Shown one piece after another: positions 7,217 through 62,805 of a stretch of DNA of 64,000 nt. The number at the start of each line of letters is the position of its first letter. Within the stretch, counting starts at the first letter, position 1. Under the pieces are notes generated by a model. It was not told where the DNA came from and made no database searches. It worked only from the letters and a program-made list of their open reading frames with translations. The position numbers were made by a program, and so were the translations under genes. The DNA is from Cristatella mucedo. Lineage: Eukaryota > Bryozoa > Phylactolaemata > Cristatellidae. The stretch is from the NCBI GenBank assembly GCA_009760855.2, contig WPIO01000081.1:1433001-1497000 (forward strand), read 5' to 3'.

Positions 7217-7388
7217 AATATAATGGAACAGCTGTCGTCGCTAAGCTAGGCTTAGTTCTTACAATCGTGAAATTTGGGAACCCGTGTGCACAAATTCGAG
7301 TTGCTGCAGTCAGATATTTTTGCTCTGCGCAGCGCAGCCCTCTCGCTCGGTGCACTCTGACCGCGTTGTGCACTTTTCCTCCATACAG

Positions 7389-7462
7389 CGCGCAAGGCGG
7401 CTCCTCCGATGGACGTGAGCGGCTTGCCCTGCTTTGAGCTCCTCACCCCGAAAGAGCAGGAG
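7389..7462 (+). CDS. TADA2A: TADA2A exon: start of SWIRM region
   Basis: The exon begins after the acceptor CCATACAG and ends before GTACTC. Read in the frame joined from 3382 it gives RKAAPPMDVSGLPCFELLTP then KEQE. The family pattern at this point is APPL(D/N)LTGLPG followed by LxEKEKE, the first part of the SWIRM domain. The intron on its left is about 4.0 kb and holds a LINE-B reverse-transcriptase fragment and three SINE or tail pieces. The intron on its right is 189 bp in phase 0. An ATG at 7409 lies inside the exon, but it aligns with a conserved internal position and is unlikely to be the gene's start. Confidence 0.88.
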
Positions 7463-7651
7463 GTACTCGCGCGCGCAGTGCTCGCGCCGTTTCTTGCCGC
7501 CAGCGTAGCTGCCATTGAGTCCTGGCCGCCGTGTCACACCTATGCCGAAGCTGCCGAAAGCGTGCTTATCATCCGCACATCAATCCTTAGCATCTATGCT
7601 GCTGCGCTCTCTCGCTGCTTCTTTCGCACTCTACTGCTGTGTCTGCTGCAG
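7463..7651 (+). other. TADA2A: TADA2A intron, 189 bp and open in frame
   Basis: GT at 7463 and AG at 7650-7651 bound an intron whose length is a multiple of three and which has no stop in the host frame. The 63 codons are hydrophobic and Ala/Ser/Leu-rich, with no family counterpart, so I treat the segment as an intron although the frame runs straight through it. Confidence 0.85.
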
Positions 7652-7840
7652 GTGTGCTCGAATGTGCGACTGGTGCCGAAGGTATATCTCGACATCAAGA
7701 GGATTCTGGTCAGTGAAAGCAAGAAACTTGGCTCGCTGCGCCTTGCACAAGCCCGCGAGCTCATAAAGATCGACGTGAACAAGACGCGAAAGCTATTTGA
7801 TTTTCTGTCGGTCGAGGGCTACATAGTAAAAGAAGGGTGA
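7652..7840 (+). CDS. TADA2A: TADA2A last coding exon: SWIRM domain and stop
   Basis: The acceptor CTGCTGCAG is followed by 62 codons and a TGA stop. The product begins VCSNVRLVPKVYLDIKRIL and contains LRLAQARELIKIDVNKTRK, then LFDFLSVEGYIVKEG. This is close to the TADA2A family C-terminus (VRLVPGAYLEYK, then LRLAQARALIKIDVNKTRK, then IYDFLIREGYI), the helical SWIRM core that in ADA2-alpha binds DNA or nucleosomes. The protein ends where the family normally ends, so this is the natural C-terminus. The reading frame is intact in all three exons, which argues for a working gene rather than a processed copy, since introns are present. I saw no canonical AATAAA within about 250 bp of the stop. LINE-A debris starts near 8190, which limits the likely 3' UTR. 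Confidence 0.95.
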   Translation: MCSNVRLVPKVYLDIKRILVSESKKLGSLRLAQARELIKIDVNKTRKLFDFLSVEGYIVKEG

Positions 7841-32460: not shown

Positions 32461-33365
<905 letters not shown>

Positions 33366-38697: not shown

Positions 38698-39656
38698 ATA
38701 ATGTACTTGATAAAGCGCCCTCAGAGAACTTAATCTCTTTCTAGGCGTTTTACATTTGCTGCAAAGAGAAATGCAATTGAATGGTAAGTAAAATCATGCT
38801 TGAAAAACAAACAAAATGAATAACATGGTTAGGGGTGACATGCACAGGGTCAGCATGCAAATGTGGTTAGTGGCAGCATGCACAGTGTCAGCACGCATAA
38901 GCACGTGAAGGACGAATCACAGGGACCCACTATCATGGTATAATCACTGGTCCATGCATTCGTGACATCTCGTCGCGACTTCTGCAACTCACTGCTTACT
39001 GGCCTACCAGCATGTGCGATCAGGCGATTGCAGCTGGTGCAAAACTCTGCAGCTAGGCTTGTCTGTCGTGAGCGTCGCAGTTGCCACATTACTCCACTTC
39101 TCGCCGACCTGCACTGGCTACCAGTCAAGCAACGGATTGACTTCAAGGTTTTGTCTCTCACTTTTAGGTCCCTTCATTCTATGGCTCCAGCCTATCTGTC
39201 AGATATACTACCCCATCAGGCCAAGCATCGTACCACCCGCTTTTTGGAATCCAACAATCTACAAATACCCCGTACAAACCTCAAATCCTTTGGGGACCGT
39301 GCATTTAGTTCGTATGCTCCCAAAGCCTGGAACTCTCTCCCGACCTGCGTCAGAACATCCCCTGACTTGACCACATTTAAAAGGAACTTAAAAACACACC
39401 TATTTAGGACAGCATAAGGTGGGTCCCTGTGATTCGTCCTTCACGTGCTTATGCGTGCTGACACTGTGCATGCTGCCACTAACCACATTTGCATGCTGAC
39501 CCTGTGCATGTCACCCCTAACCATGTTATTCATTTTGTTAGTTTTTCAAGCATGATTTTACTTACCATTCAATTGCATTTCTCTTTGCAGCAAATGTAAA
39601 GCGCCTAGAAAGAGATTAAGTTCTCTGAGGGCGCTTTATCAAGTACATTATATATA
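38693..39656. mobile_element. LINE-A inserted as a near-perfect palindrome
   Basis: The right part is a 5'-truncated + LINE-A: frame 38962-39417 runs without a stop through [40 protein letters not shown] and [13 protein letters not shown], then the 3' UTR and hairpin to 39656. The left arm (38693-38930) is the same 238-bp 3' UTR and hairpin in reverse. By eye the arms differ at about two bases. TA repeats flank both ends. Confidence 0.93.
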
Positions 39657-52989: not shown

Positions 52990-53650
52990 CCGTCAGAATA
53001 AAGTGCACAGCCAAGTCGCTCGTGGCTTTGAATTGCCGAAGCGTGGAGGACAGTCATCGGATGCGTAATCAGTAATGTCGGCGGCTAGGAAGCTTGTAGG
53101 GCTGACACCAACAAACATTTGCATGTCGTCAGAGCTGCTTAGCAAGCATAGGCACCACAGTCCGTTACATGATAATGTTACATGAAATTCTAGATTGTGC
53201 TTAGCAATCACATCGGCAAGAGGAAGAGCGTAAACCGTAAAACGAACCGGACCAAGCACGGAGCCTTCAGGTACCCTATATGTCAGAGGTACCTCTGATG
53301 ATCTTTGTCCATTCACATCGATACTCTGGAGTCTCCCACTGAGGTAGGACCAGAACCATCGCAGAGCAGTGCCAGCGATGCACAGGCGAGATGACAATTG
53401 TTCAAGAAGGACTTGGTGATTAATAGTATCAAAAGCTGCCGTATGATCGAGCAAAACAAGCAGAAGTAATCTACTTAAGTCTGCATTCCTAAGTAGGTTG
53501 TTATGCACCCGAAGAAATGCTGACTCACTTGAGCGATAAGCTCTAAAATCAGACTGGAATTTACCAGCTAGGTTTGAAGTTTCAAGATATAAGTTTAGCT
53601 GGTCTGCCATGACGGTTCCAGTGTTAGTAAGAACCTCCCACATCCTGCGT
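52990..53650 (-). mobile_element. LINE-A reverse-transcriptase core
   Basis: A 216-codon minus frame (53643-52993) contains reverse-transcriptase blocks: FQSDFRAYRSSESAFLRVHN, LLDHTAAFDTINHQVLLEQL, VPEGSVLGPVRFTVYALPLA and SSDDMQMFV in place of YADD. It has no stop over this length but has lost motif residues (Q to E in VPQG, and the Tyr-Ala of YADD), so it is an inactive fragment. Confidence 0.88.
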
Positions 53651-54511
53651 TCACCCTATCAGCAGGTTGGCTGTCAAACCTACAACTCTCAAGTTAAAAG
53701 CGCTGATTAGCACTCGTTTCGATAATAGCTTACTCACCGTGCCTCAAGATGTTGCAAAAAGTCGACAGGCGACCGTTACTAAGGTAGAATTTAAATTCGA
53801 AATAGAAGCGTCTGCCGGGCCGTCTACATTCCGACTAAAATGCAGGGTACTTTATCGCCATCGCTCACTTATTGGACAGCCACTTAAGTGCTGCCCGTTA
53901 AATGTCCACTAGCTAAAAACCAAGGGATTACTTGAATGCAATCAAGCTGTCCAGGAGAAGCTCGATCTATTTTTGCTGACCAAAACGTGGATGACGTCAT
54001 TCTCCTGTAGCTCTATATCTGGGACTACGCCCCCCCCCCAGGTTCTCTTTCTTTCAGTCAACGCGATGTAATAGGTTGATGCGGGATTGACATTTTTGGT
54101 CGTGAATTGTTTGGTTACAAGAAATGTGGTGTTTTGCACCCGCCACCGTTTGAATCAGTTGCGATCAGGTCCTCATCAAAGACAGTAACTGTTATTGTTG
54201 TGATTTACCTCCTCCTTATGTGACCTCCTTCTGGCTGTCTACACTTGTTTTTAGAGGAGTTTTCGGAGTTCCTCACTAAAGTATTTTAGTGTGGCAGGCC
54301 ATTAGTGATTGCAGGAGACTTCAACATTCACGTTGACAACCCAAGCAACCTTAAGATCCCCTCATTTCTTGAATGTCTGGAGAACTCTGGTTTGGTTCAA
54401 TACGTTGATCATTCCACTGACGTCGGTGGCCATATCCTGGTTCTCATTTTCGCTTAGAATATCGGCCTCACTGACCTTGTTGTATGCCCGCTGACCCAAT
54501 TGGATCGTTGT

Positions 54512-55572: not shown

Positions 55573-57099
55573 TTTGCTGGCCGAAGTTGACGGTGAAAGT
55601 TTGCGGCGAAGTCTCACTCCCCAGATATTTTAGGCTCGGCCAAAAATATTTGGCCATCTTTACTGGATAAAGTTATGCACATTCGTTTCTCCATGAAGCC
55701 CCTTCCGACTAAAGCTATTGCTGAATAGCAACGTGTGGCCTTTCTTAAAAGATTTTCGGCGTTTCTTCGTGCGATGTTGCTACCTTAATAAGTTATAGTA
55801 AAAAGAGCTCGTCTCCTCAAGATCCTACGCCAGCATGTCTGTAGTCTTCACTGGCAGACAAACTTAGCCAGCCGTAACTGAGATTTTCAACGGTTCTCTG
55901 GAAAAAGAGTTTGCATCCAATTTCTTTACATCTGCCATCATCAGATTGATATTTAAAAAGCATGGGTTAGATAAAAGTCTATGCAAACTATTGCCAAGTT
56001 TCTCATCTTTTTTTTTCAAAGACTCTTAAAAATTTTGGCCGTAAGCAGATAGTAAAAAGAATGGTAGCGCGCATTGAAAACAAAGAAAGTTCAGAAGAAT
56101 TTCAATCGGGGCTCCAGCGGCAGCACTCCACTGAAACTGCTCTCCTCCGTGGAACTAGTGACATCCTATTCAGCAAAGATGACGGGTATGTCACTGTCCT
56201 AGCACTGCTTGGTCTATCAGCTCCTTTCGACACTATCGATCGCAATATCCTACTTGAACAATTGAAAACAATGATCGATCTGGTAGACGAGGCACTGTTG
56301 TGGTTTAAATCTTACTTATCCGATCGTGTTCAATCCGTATCATGTAGGAGTCTGGTCTCATCCACCAGACCAGTCACCTGCGCAGTCCCACAAGGGTCCG
56401 TCCTCGGTTCCTTGCTGTTCCCAATTTATACTCAGCCTCTGGAAAAAGTTATCAAGGCCCATGGAATAGGCTATGACTTTTAGATTGACGATACTCAGCT
56501 GTATTTTTAATTCAAACAGTCGGAGTCTGCTGCAGCAACTGATAAACTGAATGCTTGCCTTGCCGACATTCGATCCAGGATGTCGGTAATGCTCTGAAAC
56601 CGAACGACGAGAAAGCACAGCTGCTGTTCACAGGAAACCCCAAGCGTGTGGCTTGCCTAGAATGCTTCTCTGTTCTCATAGGTGATGCTGTTTTGCGACC
56701 ATCACCATGTGCTCGAAAAAAATATCGTCGTCTTCGACAGCTGCCCAAGTTTTGAAAGCTTCATCACGAAGACTGCTTCCACAGCTAGCCATCACGTCCG
56801 ATCCCTATCTAAGATTCGAATCTGTCCTCTACGGTGCTTGCAAAGAATTTAACTGGCTCCTTTAGGTCTGTCTCGACAAGAACCCGTACGGTCGACCTTA
56901 GCAAGCCCTTATTGGCTTAGGCTGCAGCGGTTTAAAGGGCAGAGTACCCACTCGTATGCGACGTGAACGAACGCAGGCTCCTATGCGGTGCTACTCTCGC
57001 GCCAATATTCTGGATGCCGCTGGAGGTGTTGCCGTCTCCCAATCTCATTGCGGACATTTAAGCGCGATGGGCTAGTCTGCTGACATCACGAAATGCACG

Positions 57100-60689: not shown

Positions 60690-60742
60690 CACGTGGCCTT
60701 GAGATCCCTATAAAATGACCGCCGAGCTATTGCCGGCCAATG
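60690..60742 (+). promoter_or_regulatory. Core promoter of the secreted-peptide gene
   Basis: A TATAAAA box lies at 60709-60715. An E-box CACGTG at 60690-60695 sits 14 bp upstream of it. A start site is expected about 30 bp downstream of the TATA box, near 60739-60742. The surrounding DNA is CpG-rich. No clear initiator motif is visible. This is inferred from sequence motifs and from the intact coding exon just downstream. Confidence 0.65.
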
Positions 60743-60817
60743 CCAACCCGTGCAGCGGGTAGTAGCTTGTGCTTGGGCCGCCGTTGCCCGGCGTTAGCAG
60801 TGAGGCGAGCTTTCGTC

Positions 60818-60876
60818 ATGAGGCCCCTGATATCGGATAGCGCCGGCAGACTAAATCGACAGACCAACCTAAACAG
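60818..60876 (+). CDS. Secreted peptide precursor, exon 1 (coding part)
   Basis: The exon opens with ATG at 60818 and ends AAACAG before GTAGGG, a good donor. It encodes 19 residues (MRPLISDSAGRLNRQTNLN) plus two bases, so the intron is phase 2. The two bases AG join the single leading base T of the exon at 62052 to make Ser, and the frame runs straight into a signal-peptide core. This phase match, together with the TATA box about 108 bp upstream, is the reason for joining the exons. An in-frame ATG at 60740 exists, but it falls at the expected transcription start and is probably not translated; if used it would add 26 residues. The N-terminal part before the hydrophobic core is rather long (about 20 residues) for a signal peptide. 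Confidence 0.72.
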
Positions 60877-61116
60877 GTAGGGTGCGGCGCGAGCAGCTGT
60901 CACTCTTGTCTGCACTGCGGTTGCTGCTGCAACTCTTCTCCCTCCCTCTCTCCCCCCTCTCTCTCTCTCTCTCTCTCTCCCTCTCTTTCCCCCTCTCTCT
61001 GTTTGCCACTACCTCTCCTCCTTCCGAATTCACCTGTCTCTTCCCTAACTCAATCTCTCGCCCTACCAATCTCTCTCTTTTCACTCCTTCCTTTTCTCTC
61101 GCCCTAACTATATCTC

Positions 61117-61217
61117 CCTCACTTCTCCTCTCCTCTCCTCTCCTCTCCTCTCCTCTCCTCTCCTCTCCTCTCCTCTCCTCTCCTCTCCTCTCCTCTCTTC
61201 TTCTCTCCTCTCCTCTC
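61117..61217 (+). repeat. (CTCCT)n pentamer array
   Basis: About sixteen nearly perfect units inside the peptide-gene intron. Confidence 0.96.
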
Positions 61218-61374
61218 TCTGTTCCACCTTACCTCGGTCCACGCTCTTGTTCTTTATCTGGCTATCTATCTACTTATCTATGTATCTGCATGTCTGCCTA
61301 TCTAGCCGTCTTTCTCTATTTATCTAGCTATCTAACTTTGTGAATCGTCCTTTGTGTCCATTTACCTGCTTACT

Positions 61375-61510
61375 TGCTCGTGCCTGCTGATTGCAGATGT
61401 TACCACCAAATATTTAGTCATGCTTTATATGTAGCATCTATAAAGTTCCTAGAGAGAAAGAGACTCAGTTCCCTGAGGGCGCCGTACAATTTATTATAAT
61501 TATTATTATT
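61375..61510 (+). mobile_element. LINE-A-like 3' tail, variant family
   Basis: Shares TGCCTGCTGATTGCAGATGT with the copy at 25640; GACTCAGTTCCCTGAGGGCG hairpin; TTATTATTATT tail. It lies within the peptide-gene intron, same strand. Confidence 0.78.
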
Positions 61511-62051
61511 ATATCCACCTATCTATCTATCCACCCACCTATCTATTTATCTATCTATATATCTATCTATCTATGTATTCATATATCTATCTGTCTACGT
61601 GCCTATCTTTAAATCTGTCTTTTTGTCTATCTGTCGATCTATCTATCTATCTCTCCCCTCTCGTTCTGTTTCTCTCGAGTTCAATTTTACGGTCTGCTAG
61701 CATGAATATTATACAGCAATATCAGCTTGAATATTAGCATGAATAGTATACACGCCCGCCTTTCGCTCGCTGCCCGAGTCTCAGCCGCTCTTCACGTCGA
61801 CTACCTCACGCGGTAGCGCGTCCGGCGAGCCGCGCAAGGGCGTCCATCGCCGCTCGATCAGCTCCAGCCGCGCGGGTGGCGCGATCGCTCGGACTGGCTA
61901 TAGCCGAGCAGGGCTCTCGCCGAGGCGAGCCGTCGACGCGCCGCACGCCGCGCGCCCGCCTGTGGCGTGCTGCAGAGGCGCGAGTGCGGCCCAGCGCGCC
62001 TGCGTCTCCCAACTAGCGATGACGCCAGTCGCGCGTCTTTTTTTCTTGCAG

Positions 62052-62610
62052 TCATGCCGCGCTCGCTGTAATCTCTTTCATCACTCTGGCGGTGATTGCG
62101 TCTCTGCTACCGGCGGCAGATGGCCAGCCGCTGCTGCTGCCGCCGACCGCCGCGAAGAAAGTACCGCCTCTTGGAAAACAGTGGTTTGGCGGCGCGCCGG
62201 CAGCGGCGCCGGTGGCTCCGCTGTCCACCAGAGAGCTCTTGCGGACGCTGTTCGAGAAGCTAAAGGCCGTCCTTGCCTTGTCTTCAGCAGCCACCCAACT
62301 GCGGCCGTCGGAAGCGGACGGCCCGCCCGCCGCCGCAGTCGCCGCTGCAGCTGCCGCCCCGCGCAGGGAAACTGCCGGTGGGAAGCCGACGGAGACGATG
62401 GCGGCGGTGAGATCTGCGGCGGCGGCGGCGCTACCGCGCGCGAGCGCCTTGGCGAATGAGCAGGGCCGCCGGCGGAGTGCATTCGACCTGCTGATGCTCA
62501 AGCGCAACAATCGCCGAGAGCAGTATCCGCACTACAACCCGTTCGGCGGCGGAGTGTGGGGCAAGCGAGCTGCGCCGCCGACGGACTTCGAGTATGAGGT
62601 GGAAGATTAG
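62052..62610 (+). CDS. Secreted peptide precursor, exon 2: signal core and amidated peptide
   Basis: A strong acceptor (a T-run then CTTGCAG) leads into HAALAVISFITLAVIASLL, a signal-peptide hydrophobic core, with likely cleavage near PAADG/QP. After an Ala/Pro-rich spacer with an amphipathic stretch (STRELLRTLFEKLKAVLAL), the end holds the cassette: RRR, SAFDLLML, KR, NNRREQYPHYNPFGGGVW, Gly-Lys-Arg, AAPPTDFEYEVED, stop. Dibasic sites are prohormone-convertase signals and Gly before Lys-Arg is the donor for C-terminal amidation, so an 18-residue Trp-amide is predicted; cleavage at the inner RR would leave EQYPHYNPFGGGVW-amide. The acidic Tyr-containing tail resembles a discarded or sulfatable spacer. 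Full precursor: 205 residues. I do not recognise the peptide as any named family; it lacks the paired Trp of allatostatin-B/MIP peptides and the short form of AKH or APGWamide. It presumably acts as a neuropeptide or hormone through a receptor outside the cell. Confidence 0.78.
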
Positions 62611-62651
62611 GCCGCTCCGACGAGTGTGGGCGCGTTCGTCCAATCCCTTCT

Positions 62652-62654
<3 letters not shown>

Positions 62655-62722
<68 letters not shown>

Positions 62723-62728
62723 TTCTCT
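62655..62728 (+). repeat. (CT)n tract in presumed 3' UTR
   Basis: About 74 bp of nearly pure CT dinucleotides, 45 bp after the peptide-gene stop codon. Confidence 0.95.
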
Positions 62729-62799
62729 CGCTCTCTTTTGTCCGCTGCAGCTCTTCCGGGTTGCTGCAAGTCCGTGCTGTAATACGTCGGCGTCTATTT

Positions 62800-62805
62800 A
62801 TTAAA
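62800..62805 (+). terminator. Possible polyadenylation signal (ATTAAA) of the peptide gene
   Basis: ATTAAA, the commonest variant of AATAAA, lies 190 bp after the stop at 62610 and after the CT tract of the presumed 3' UTR. No AATAAA occurs between the stop and here. Confidence 0.4.

Follow-up and report, generated by a model that had tools for sequence, protein, structure and literature searches.

In molluscs, peptides of the cholecystokinin/sulfakinin (CCK/SK) family follow the consensus X(1-6)(D/E)Y(G/N)(L/F/I)GGGR(F/W)-amide, and the form FDYNFGGGRWa is found in Lottia (PMC4208409). Non-chordate CCK/SK precursors, for example that of the oyster, hold two peptides each (PMC6219549). The oyster precursor contains pQGAWDYDYGLGGGRF-amide and then a second peptide, FDYNFGGGRW-amide (CCK2), and the second peptide of the Pinctada precursor is SFGDYSLGGGRF-amide (PMC4200219). 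In the oyster, sulfation of Tyr8 raises the potency of CCK1 90- and 50-fold. The same study treats Phe-amide as what CCK/SK peptides have in common, with RW-amide as the one exception, finds CCK2 weakly active, or hardly active, on the two known CCK receptors, and asks which receptor serves it (PMC6219549). A Trp-amide end is also seen in the starfish, where ArSK/CCK1 is a ligand of the starfish receptor and the antigen representing its truncated form ends in GHGLFW-NH2 (PMC8428848). A survey of nemerteans, brachiopods, and phoronids reports sulfakinin precursors in all three groups (PMC8557429). Here, we describe a candidate peptide gene from the bryozoan Cristatella mucedo that lies in a stretch of 64,000 nucleotides of contig WPIO01000081.1 (C667:1433001-1497000), which is called the window below.

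The gene has two coding exons (60818-60876 and 62052-62610, + strand) and encodes a predicted precursor of 205 amino acids in which a single Trp-ending peptide stands before Gly-Lys-Arg. It is reasoned, with a probability of about 0.6, that this is one of at least two W-amide, CCK/SK-like paralogues of this genome, that it is of CCK/SK-like descent, and that it would yield a single-copy Trp-amidated peptide. A preliminary description of the window had concluded that the peptide could not be placed in a known family. This is now revised: the core of the peptide resembles mollusc CCK/SK, above all FDYNFGGGRW-amide, and membership in that family is tentative.

Anatomy of the gene and its predicted precursor

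The elements named in the preliminary description, from the TATA box to the stop, are all present in the sequence. A TATA box (TATAAAA, 60709..60715, +) implies a transcription start at about 60737-60745, and a second in-frame ATG is found at 60740, at the expected cap site. Coding exon 1 (60818..60876, +) starts with the ATG at 60818 and encodes MRPLISDSAGRLNRQTNLN plus two bases (phase 2). The intron that follows (60877..62051, +; 1175 bases, GT..AG, phase 2) is pyrimidine-rich; its donor is CAG/GTAGGG at 60876/60877, and its acceptor is TTTTTTTCTTGCAG/T at 62051/62052. Coding exon 2 (62052..62610, +) is an open frame with codon periodicity that ends with the stop TAG at 62608-62610. A possible poly(A) signal, ATTAAA, is located at 62800..62805 (+). 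Since TATAAA occurs 13 times and ATTAAA 24 times on the + strand of the window, either word is weak when taken alone.

The hallmarks of a peptide precursor (signal peptide, basic cleavage sites, and Gly before KR) are found in the following order: MRPLISDSAGRLNRQTNLN-S, the hydrophobic core HAALAVISFITLAVIASLLPAADG, a long Ala/Pro-rich spacer, and then G-RRR-SAFDLLML-KR-NN-RR-EQYPHYNPFGGGVW-GKR-AAPPTDFEYEVED. The signal-peptide core (62053..62124, +) was judged by hydropathy only, which reaches 2.78, and cleavage is likely to occur before Gln45 by the -3/-1 rule. Basic pairs begin at residues 55, 124, 159, 170, 174, and 191. Upstream of the peptide are an RRR site with Gly in front (62467..62475, +) and two dibasic sites, KR-NN-RR (62500..62517, +). 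The predicted mature peptide, EQYPHYNPFGGGVW-amide, occupies 62518..62559 (+); NNRREQYPHYNPFGGGVW directly precedes the Gly-Lys-Arg amidation and cleavage signal (62560..62568, +), and the acidic tail AAPPTDFEYEVED follows (62569..62607, +). The RR within NNRREQ, a detail absent from the preliminary description, points to EQYPHYNPFGGGVW-amide as the likely mature form; if this RR is left uncut, an 18-mer with NNRR would be the alternative product. SAFDLLML (62476..62499, +), which lies between RRR and KR, could be a second product, as was proposed earlier, or a connecting piece. The flanking basic residues are the sole support for the former, and SAFDLLML has no counterpart in the alignment with the paralogue described below. 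It is also possible that the upstream spacer peptide is released as a Gln-amide at NEQ-G-RRR (62464-62475). An AlphaFold2 model of exon 2 made from the single sequence (mean pLDDT, the predicted local distance difference test, 59) has helices of moderate confidence, one of which (exon residues 112-157) ends where the peptide begins, with the peptide and the tail as coil. Such a model is compatible with a propeptide, and it is weak as evidence.

The gene is very probably real. When all GT and AG sites on the + strand of the window (3518 and 4023, respectively) are ranked by simple consensus weights chosen for this analysis, the donor falls within the top 16 and the acceptor within the top 2, at sites picked beforehand by a reader who had seen the frame. 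There are 414 stop-to-stop frames of at least 60 amino acids in the window; seven have G[KR][KR] close to their end as well as a dibasic site further upstream, and once an acidic tail is added only the frame of the peptide gene remains (1 of 414). Codon shuffles of exon 2 reproduce the tail layout in 0.004% of cases and the layout together with a hydrophobic core in none of 200,000. Simulated open reading frames show the layout in 2 of 22,816 cases under a model of the window and in 8 of 45,848 under a GC-rich local model; layout and hydrophobic core occur together in none of either set (0 of 68,664 in all). The frame count and the shuffle and simulation figures are post hoc, because the layout criteria were set after the gene had been seen. 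The codon periodicity of exon 2 exceeds that of all 5000 resampled sequences. In the C-terminal 47 codons, the dip in GC content at the second codon position (GC2) is matched by 0.16% of resamples and the chi-square by 6.7%; the GC2 dips of the signal part and the spacer are matched by 8.7% and 36%, respectively. Together with the second locus, the layout statistics and the splice sites support the earlier reading of the gene, two coding exons for the precursor of an amidated peptide.

A second locus and the likeness to cholecystokinin/sulfakinin

The last 47 residues of the precursor were searched against the whole genome (572,011,866 bases, 688 contigs) at E of 10 or less. There are two matches: the gene itself and C222:5239109-5239201 (-), where the match (E 1.2, 42% over 31 residues) lies inside an open frame of 266 amino acids that reads ...SQPMLVRKK-GLELSLDYDPFAGGPW-GKR-SVDSQSYLLGG.... 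This frame has a hydrophobic signal core within VTKYAYVALLALAAAPPRSHA. Immediately before CVTKYAYVALLALAAAPPRSHA stands a predicted acceptor, CCGTCTTTCGTCTTTAG/G (C222:5239560/5239559), after which one base completes a codon; the predicted intron is therefore in phase 2, like that of the window gene. The GC content of this exon by codon position is 0.79/0.61/0.78. At the level of DNA, the cores of the two loci match over 35 nucleotides with 86% identity (blastn, 3 kb against 30 kb, E 4e-5). The core common to both is Y[N/D]PF[G/A]GGxW-GKR, and the precursors align loosely outside it. The motif Y[DN]PF[AG]GGxWG[KR][KR], which was chosen post hoc, has a chance expectation of 1.1e-5 in the six frames of 572 Mb. 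Judged from these features, the two loci are most likely a paralogue pair, i.e. diverged copies. The preliminary description had suggested looking for conservation of the core while the Ala-rich spacer drifts, and this is what is seen between the two loci of this genome, with one paralogue. No further copy was found within the 264 kb of C667:1333001-1597000, in which all non-self matches have an E of at least 1.3.

When PHYNPFGGGVW is aligned with FDYNFGGGRW from the C-terminus, Y, N, F, G, G, G, and W are shared, with one inserted Pro. In a largely ad hoc comparison list of 47 peptide C-termini, to which the mollusc CCK entries were added after the likeness had been seen, FDYNFGGGRW-amide is the best match with a score of 37, and the next other family, SIFamide, scores 23. 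Against the list as a whole, a score of 37 is attained by 4 of 2000 peptides with all residues shuffled and by 2 of 2000 with Trp kept. The window peptide has in common with the CCK2 of Lottia and the oyster the order Y-N-F-G-G-G-x-W-amide, the amidated end, and a predicted secretory precursor. An acidic residue before the key Tyr is present in the paralogue (LDYD) and missing in the window peptide (PHYN); the DY of the paralogue supports the link to CCK/SK, whereas the HY of the window gene does not. The Trp-amide end would be compatible with CCK-type activity by analogy with starfish ArSK/CCK1. That CCK-type ligand, represented by the antigen KYGHGLFW-NH2, shares the C-terminal Trp-amide and a Tyr upstream, and it differs in having GHGLFW where the window peptide has FGGGVW and in its sulfated Tyr (PMC8428848).

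Several points weigh against descent from CCK/SK or against the pairing of the two loci. The strict mollusc consensus is followed neither by the window peptide (HYNPFGGGVW) nor by the paralogue (DYDPFAGGPW). Both have an extra Pro between N/D and F, and they carry V or P where mollusc CCK2 has R; in addition, the window gene has His for D/E before Tyr, and the paralogue has D for G/N and AGG for GGG. For this reason, the gene is not filed as a plain CCK/SK member. There are two genes with one peptide seen in each precursor, as opposed to the two peptides of an oyster-type precursor. Oyster CCK2 is also printed as pEFDYGGGRWamide (PMC6219549), a form without N-F that would make the likeness to the oyster peptide weaker. 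The make-up of the comparison list counts on the same side. A typed canonical mollusc CCK query gave no match in this genome, in a search that had no positive control. At the second locus, the E value is weak by the search's own measure, an alternative acceptor 36 bases upstream scores higher (6.0 vs 5.7) with the same phase, the tail of the precursor is Gly-rich, and exon 1 was not found when looked for with the first exon of the window gene as the only query.

The absence of relatives in the protein database tells against it as well. A database of 5.8 billion proteins, queried with two versions of the precursor and in two length ranges, yielded nothing that had three words in common with the last 50 residues; this database does contain animal proteins, with 2152 matches to a control frame from a long interspersed nuclear element (LINE) of the window. 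For exon 2, Pfam gave 0 families, the PDB sequence search no chain better than E 0.4, and NCBIfam only matches far below the cut-off. The strings NPFGGGVW and FGGGVW are absent from the PubMed Central texts searched, and HYNPFG occurs there only in an unrelated structure paper.

Alternative explanations and predicted function

The alternative that has to be taken most seriously, though we consider it improbable, is that the two loci are an unrelated, lineage-specific pair of amidated-peptide genes and that the likeness to CCK2 (Y, N, F, GGG, and W-amide) reflects convergence of a short Gly-rich peptide. The departures from the CCK/SK consensus are in its favor, as are the empty searches of databases and literature. 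Against it are the gapped alignment to CCK2, whose score few shuffles reach, and the DY before the core of the paralogue, a pair typical of CCK/SK. Very much less probable is that there is no functional gene at all, the frame being a GC-rich open frame with a chance resemblance or a decayed copy. The spacer is indeed rich in Ala, the GC-rich stretch has several other open frames, and the GC2 dip ranks the frame just eighth of the 161 window frames of at least 90 codons. A rival open frame, 61743-62456, is even longer than the peptide frame, so openness alone is no evidence for a gene. The shuffles and simulations in which layout and hydrophobic core never coincide, the top-ranked splice sites, and the conservation of the core at the second locus argue in the opposite direction.

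Two known families of amidated peptides come close enough to be weighed. A divergent SIFamide-like peptide, a slightly weaker candidate still than a chance frame, would explain why ...NPFGGGVW-amide aligns ungapped to ...PPFNGSIF-amide in the pattern P-F-x-G-x-[I/V]-aromatic-amide. SIFamide is the top ungapped match among 46 C-termini in a list without mollusc CCK, and its score against SIFamide alone is reached by 0.24-0.44% of shuffles; when the best of the list is taken, however, 4.6-7.2% of shuffles reach it, and it falls behind CCK2 (23 vs 37) once the mollusc CCK entries are included. In SIFamide precursors, YRKPPFNGSIF-amide stands directly behind the signal peptide, whereas the window peptide is near the precursor end and lacks the conserved RKPPFNGSIF stretch. 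The mollusc FFamide/SIF-like peptide GMNPNMNSLFFamide does not fit either. Membership in the Wamide superfamily (MIP/allatostatin-B, GLWamide) is the least probable of these explanations. The amidated C-terminal Trp is shared with MIP, the GLWamides, and the medusozoan peptides, and the GVW-amide end is identical to that of medusozoan pQPPGVWamide (PMC6402141, PMC7523074); among the papers listed for GVWamide-type strings (20 of 22), the relevant ones concern cnidarian and other Wamides. Yet the paralogue ends in GPW, so GVW is not the part conserved between the two genes, and Wamide precursors are repetitive, with many copies (PMC7270403), whereas the window gene has one copy. In MIP, the C-terminal Trp is preceded by another one at a distance of 4 to 7 residues (PMC5996578); the window peptide has one Trp, and the preliminary description was correct in setting MIP aside. 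A kisspeptin-type gene would share an intron between the precursor start and the peptide exon and an F-G near the amidated end, but it is set aside because the intron phase differs: phase 1 in the kisspeptin genes of vertebrates and the KPP1 genes of echinoderms (PMC9400282), phase 2 in the window gene.

If the CCK/SK-like reading holds, the precursor would enter the secretory pathway for regulated secretion. Convertases would cut at RR (62512) and KR, and a carboxypeptidase together with PHM/PAL would convert Gly to the amide, giving EQYPHYNPFGGGVW-amide, perhaps with an N-terminal pyroglutamate, for release by neurons or endocrine cells. The paralogue would yield GLELSLDYDPFAGGPW-amide. Its Tyr is probably sulfated, as the DYD context suits sulfation, and that of the window peptide, with no acidic residue before it, probably is not. 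Both peptides may act on CCK-type or neighbouring G protein-coupled receptors, for which the default expectation would be control of feeding or of the gut.

A more specific history can be put forward only tentatively, and it is doubtful on present evidence: in the CCK/SK system of lophotrochozoans, the CCK2 branch with its W-amide end could have split into two stand-alone genes with the core [D/H]Y[D/N]PF[A/G]GG[P/V]W-amide, the Tyr of the paralogue staying sulfatable and the window gene losing its acidic context. The ligand, and presumably its receptor, would thereby have parted from the CCK peptides that end in RF-amide. A genome with two W-amide genes, unlike at the residue governing Tyr sulfation, would allow a direct test of the CCK2 receptor question raised in the oyster. 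Taken with the starfish FW-amide ligand (PMC8428848), the present pair suggests that the C-terminal range of CCK/SK peptides is wider than Phe-amide.

Surroundings of the gene and other observations

The window has a GC content of 48.7%, with CpG at the expected frequency. The terminal coding portion of TADA2A (Ada2a), which includes the SWIRM domain (Pfam E 7e-8; PDB 2cuj E 6e-22), is found at 7361-7837 (+), upstream of the peptide gene by about 53 kb. Broken LINE pieces, which we take to be L2-like, are found for example at 38944-39414 (+), 52996-53655 (-), and 55971-56480 (+); the latter two contain RVT_1. The best two relatives of the piece at 38944-39414 in the protein database have 74% and 68% identity, and among 120 of its 2152 matches that were listed, the named LINE relatives are mostly from fish, with one from a periwinkle, at about 51-56%, along with one Vibrio entry. 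A search of 20 other window frames (10 + 10) against Pfam gave two RVT_1 and one SWIRM above the cut-off, three below it, and nothing for 14. Rfam and tRNA scans were empty, and scans for viral and prokaryote contigs gave 28 and 534 pattern matches, none of them confirmed. A 0.9-kb array at 32462-33364 consists of 76 copies of the 12-base unit TGTCTCCCTGTC with 93% matches. In the flanking region, a stretch at C667:1571360-1572166 (+) looks by eye like the WD40 part of HIRA and another at 1409165-1409647 (+) like Nudix; both names are presumptive.

The 21,008-base contig C688 is mitochondrial and was read with the invertebrate code; all but its last 1008 bases were covered. Pfam identifies ND5, ND4, ND4L, cytochrome b, ND3, COX1, ATP6, and COX3, which share one strand, and a frame like ND2, which is encoded opposite to them. 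A frame taken for ND6 has no Pfam match. The cytochrome b-ND4L-ND4-ND5 block on the COX1 strand presumably fits a lophotrochozoan gene order, and neither the arthropod nor the vertebrate orders; by this measure, the animal looks lophotrochozoan. A tick origin, suggested by the base composition, is rejected: two SINE motifs of ticks are absent, and the LINE relatives and the mitochondrial contig also speak against it. In the same contig, frames of 96 and 95 amino acids recur at L042 3075-3365 and 2534-2821 (-) and at L043 1632-1922, 2176-2463, 3747-4037, and 4291-4578 (+), which indicates a unit of about 2.1 kb that is repeated both in tandem and inverted.

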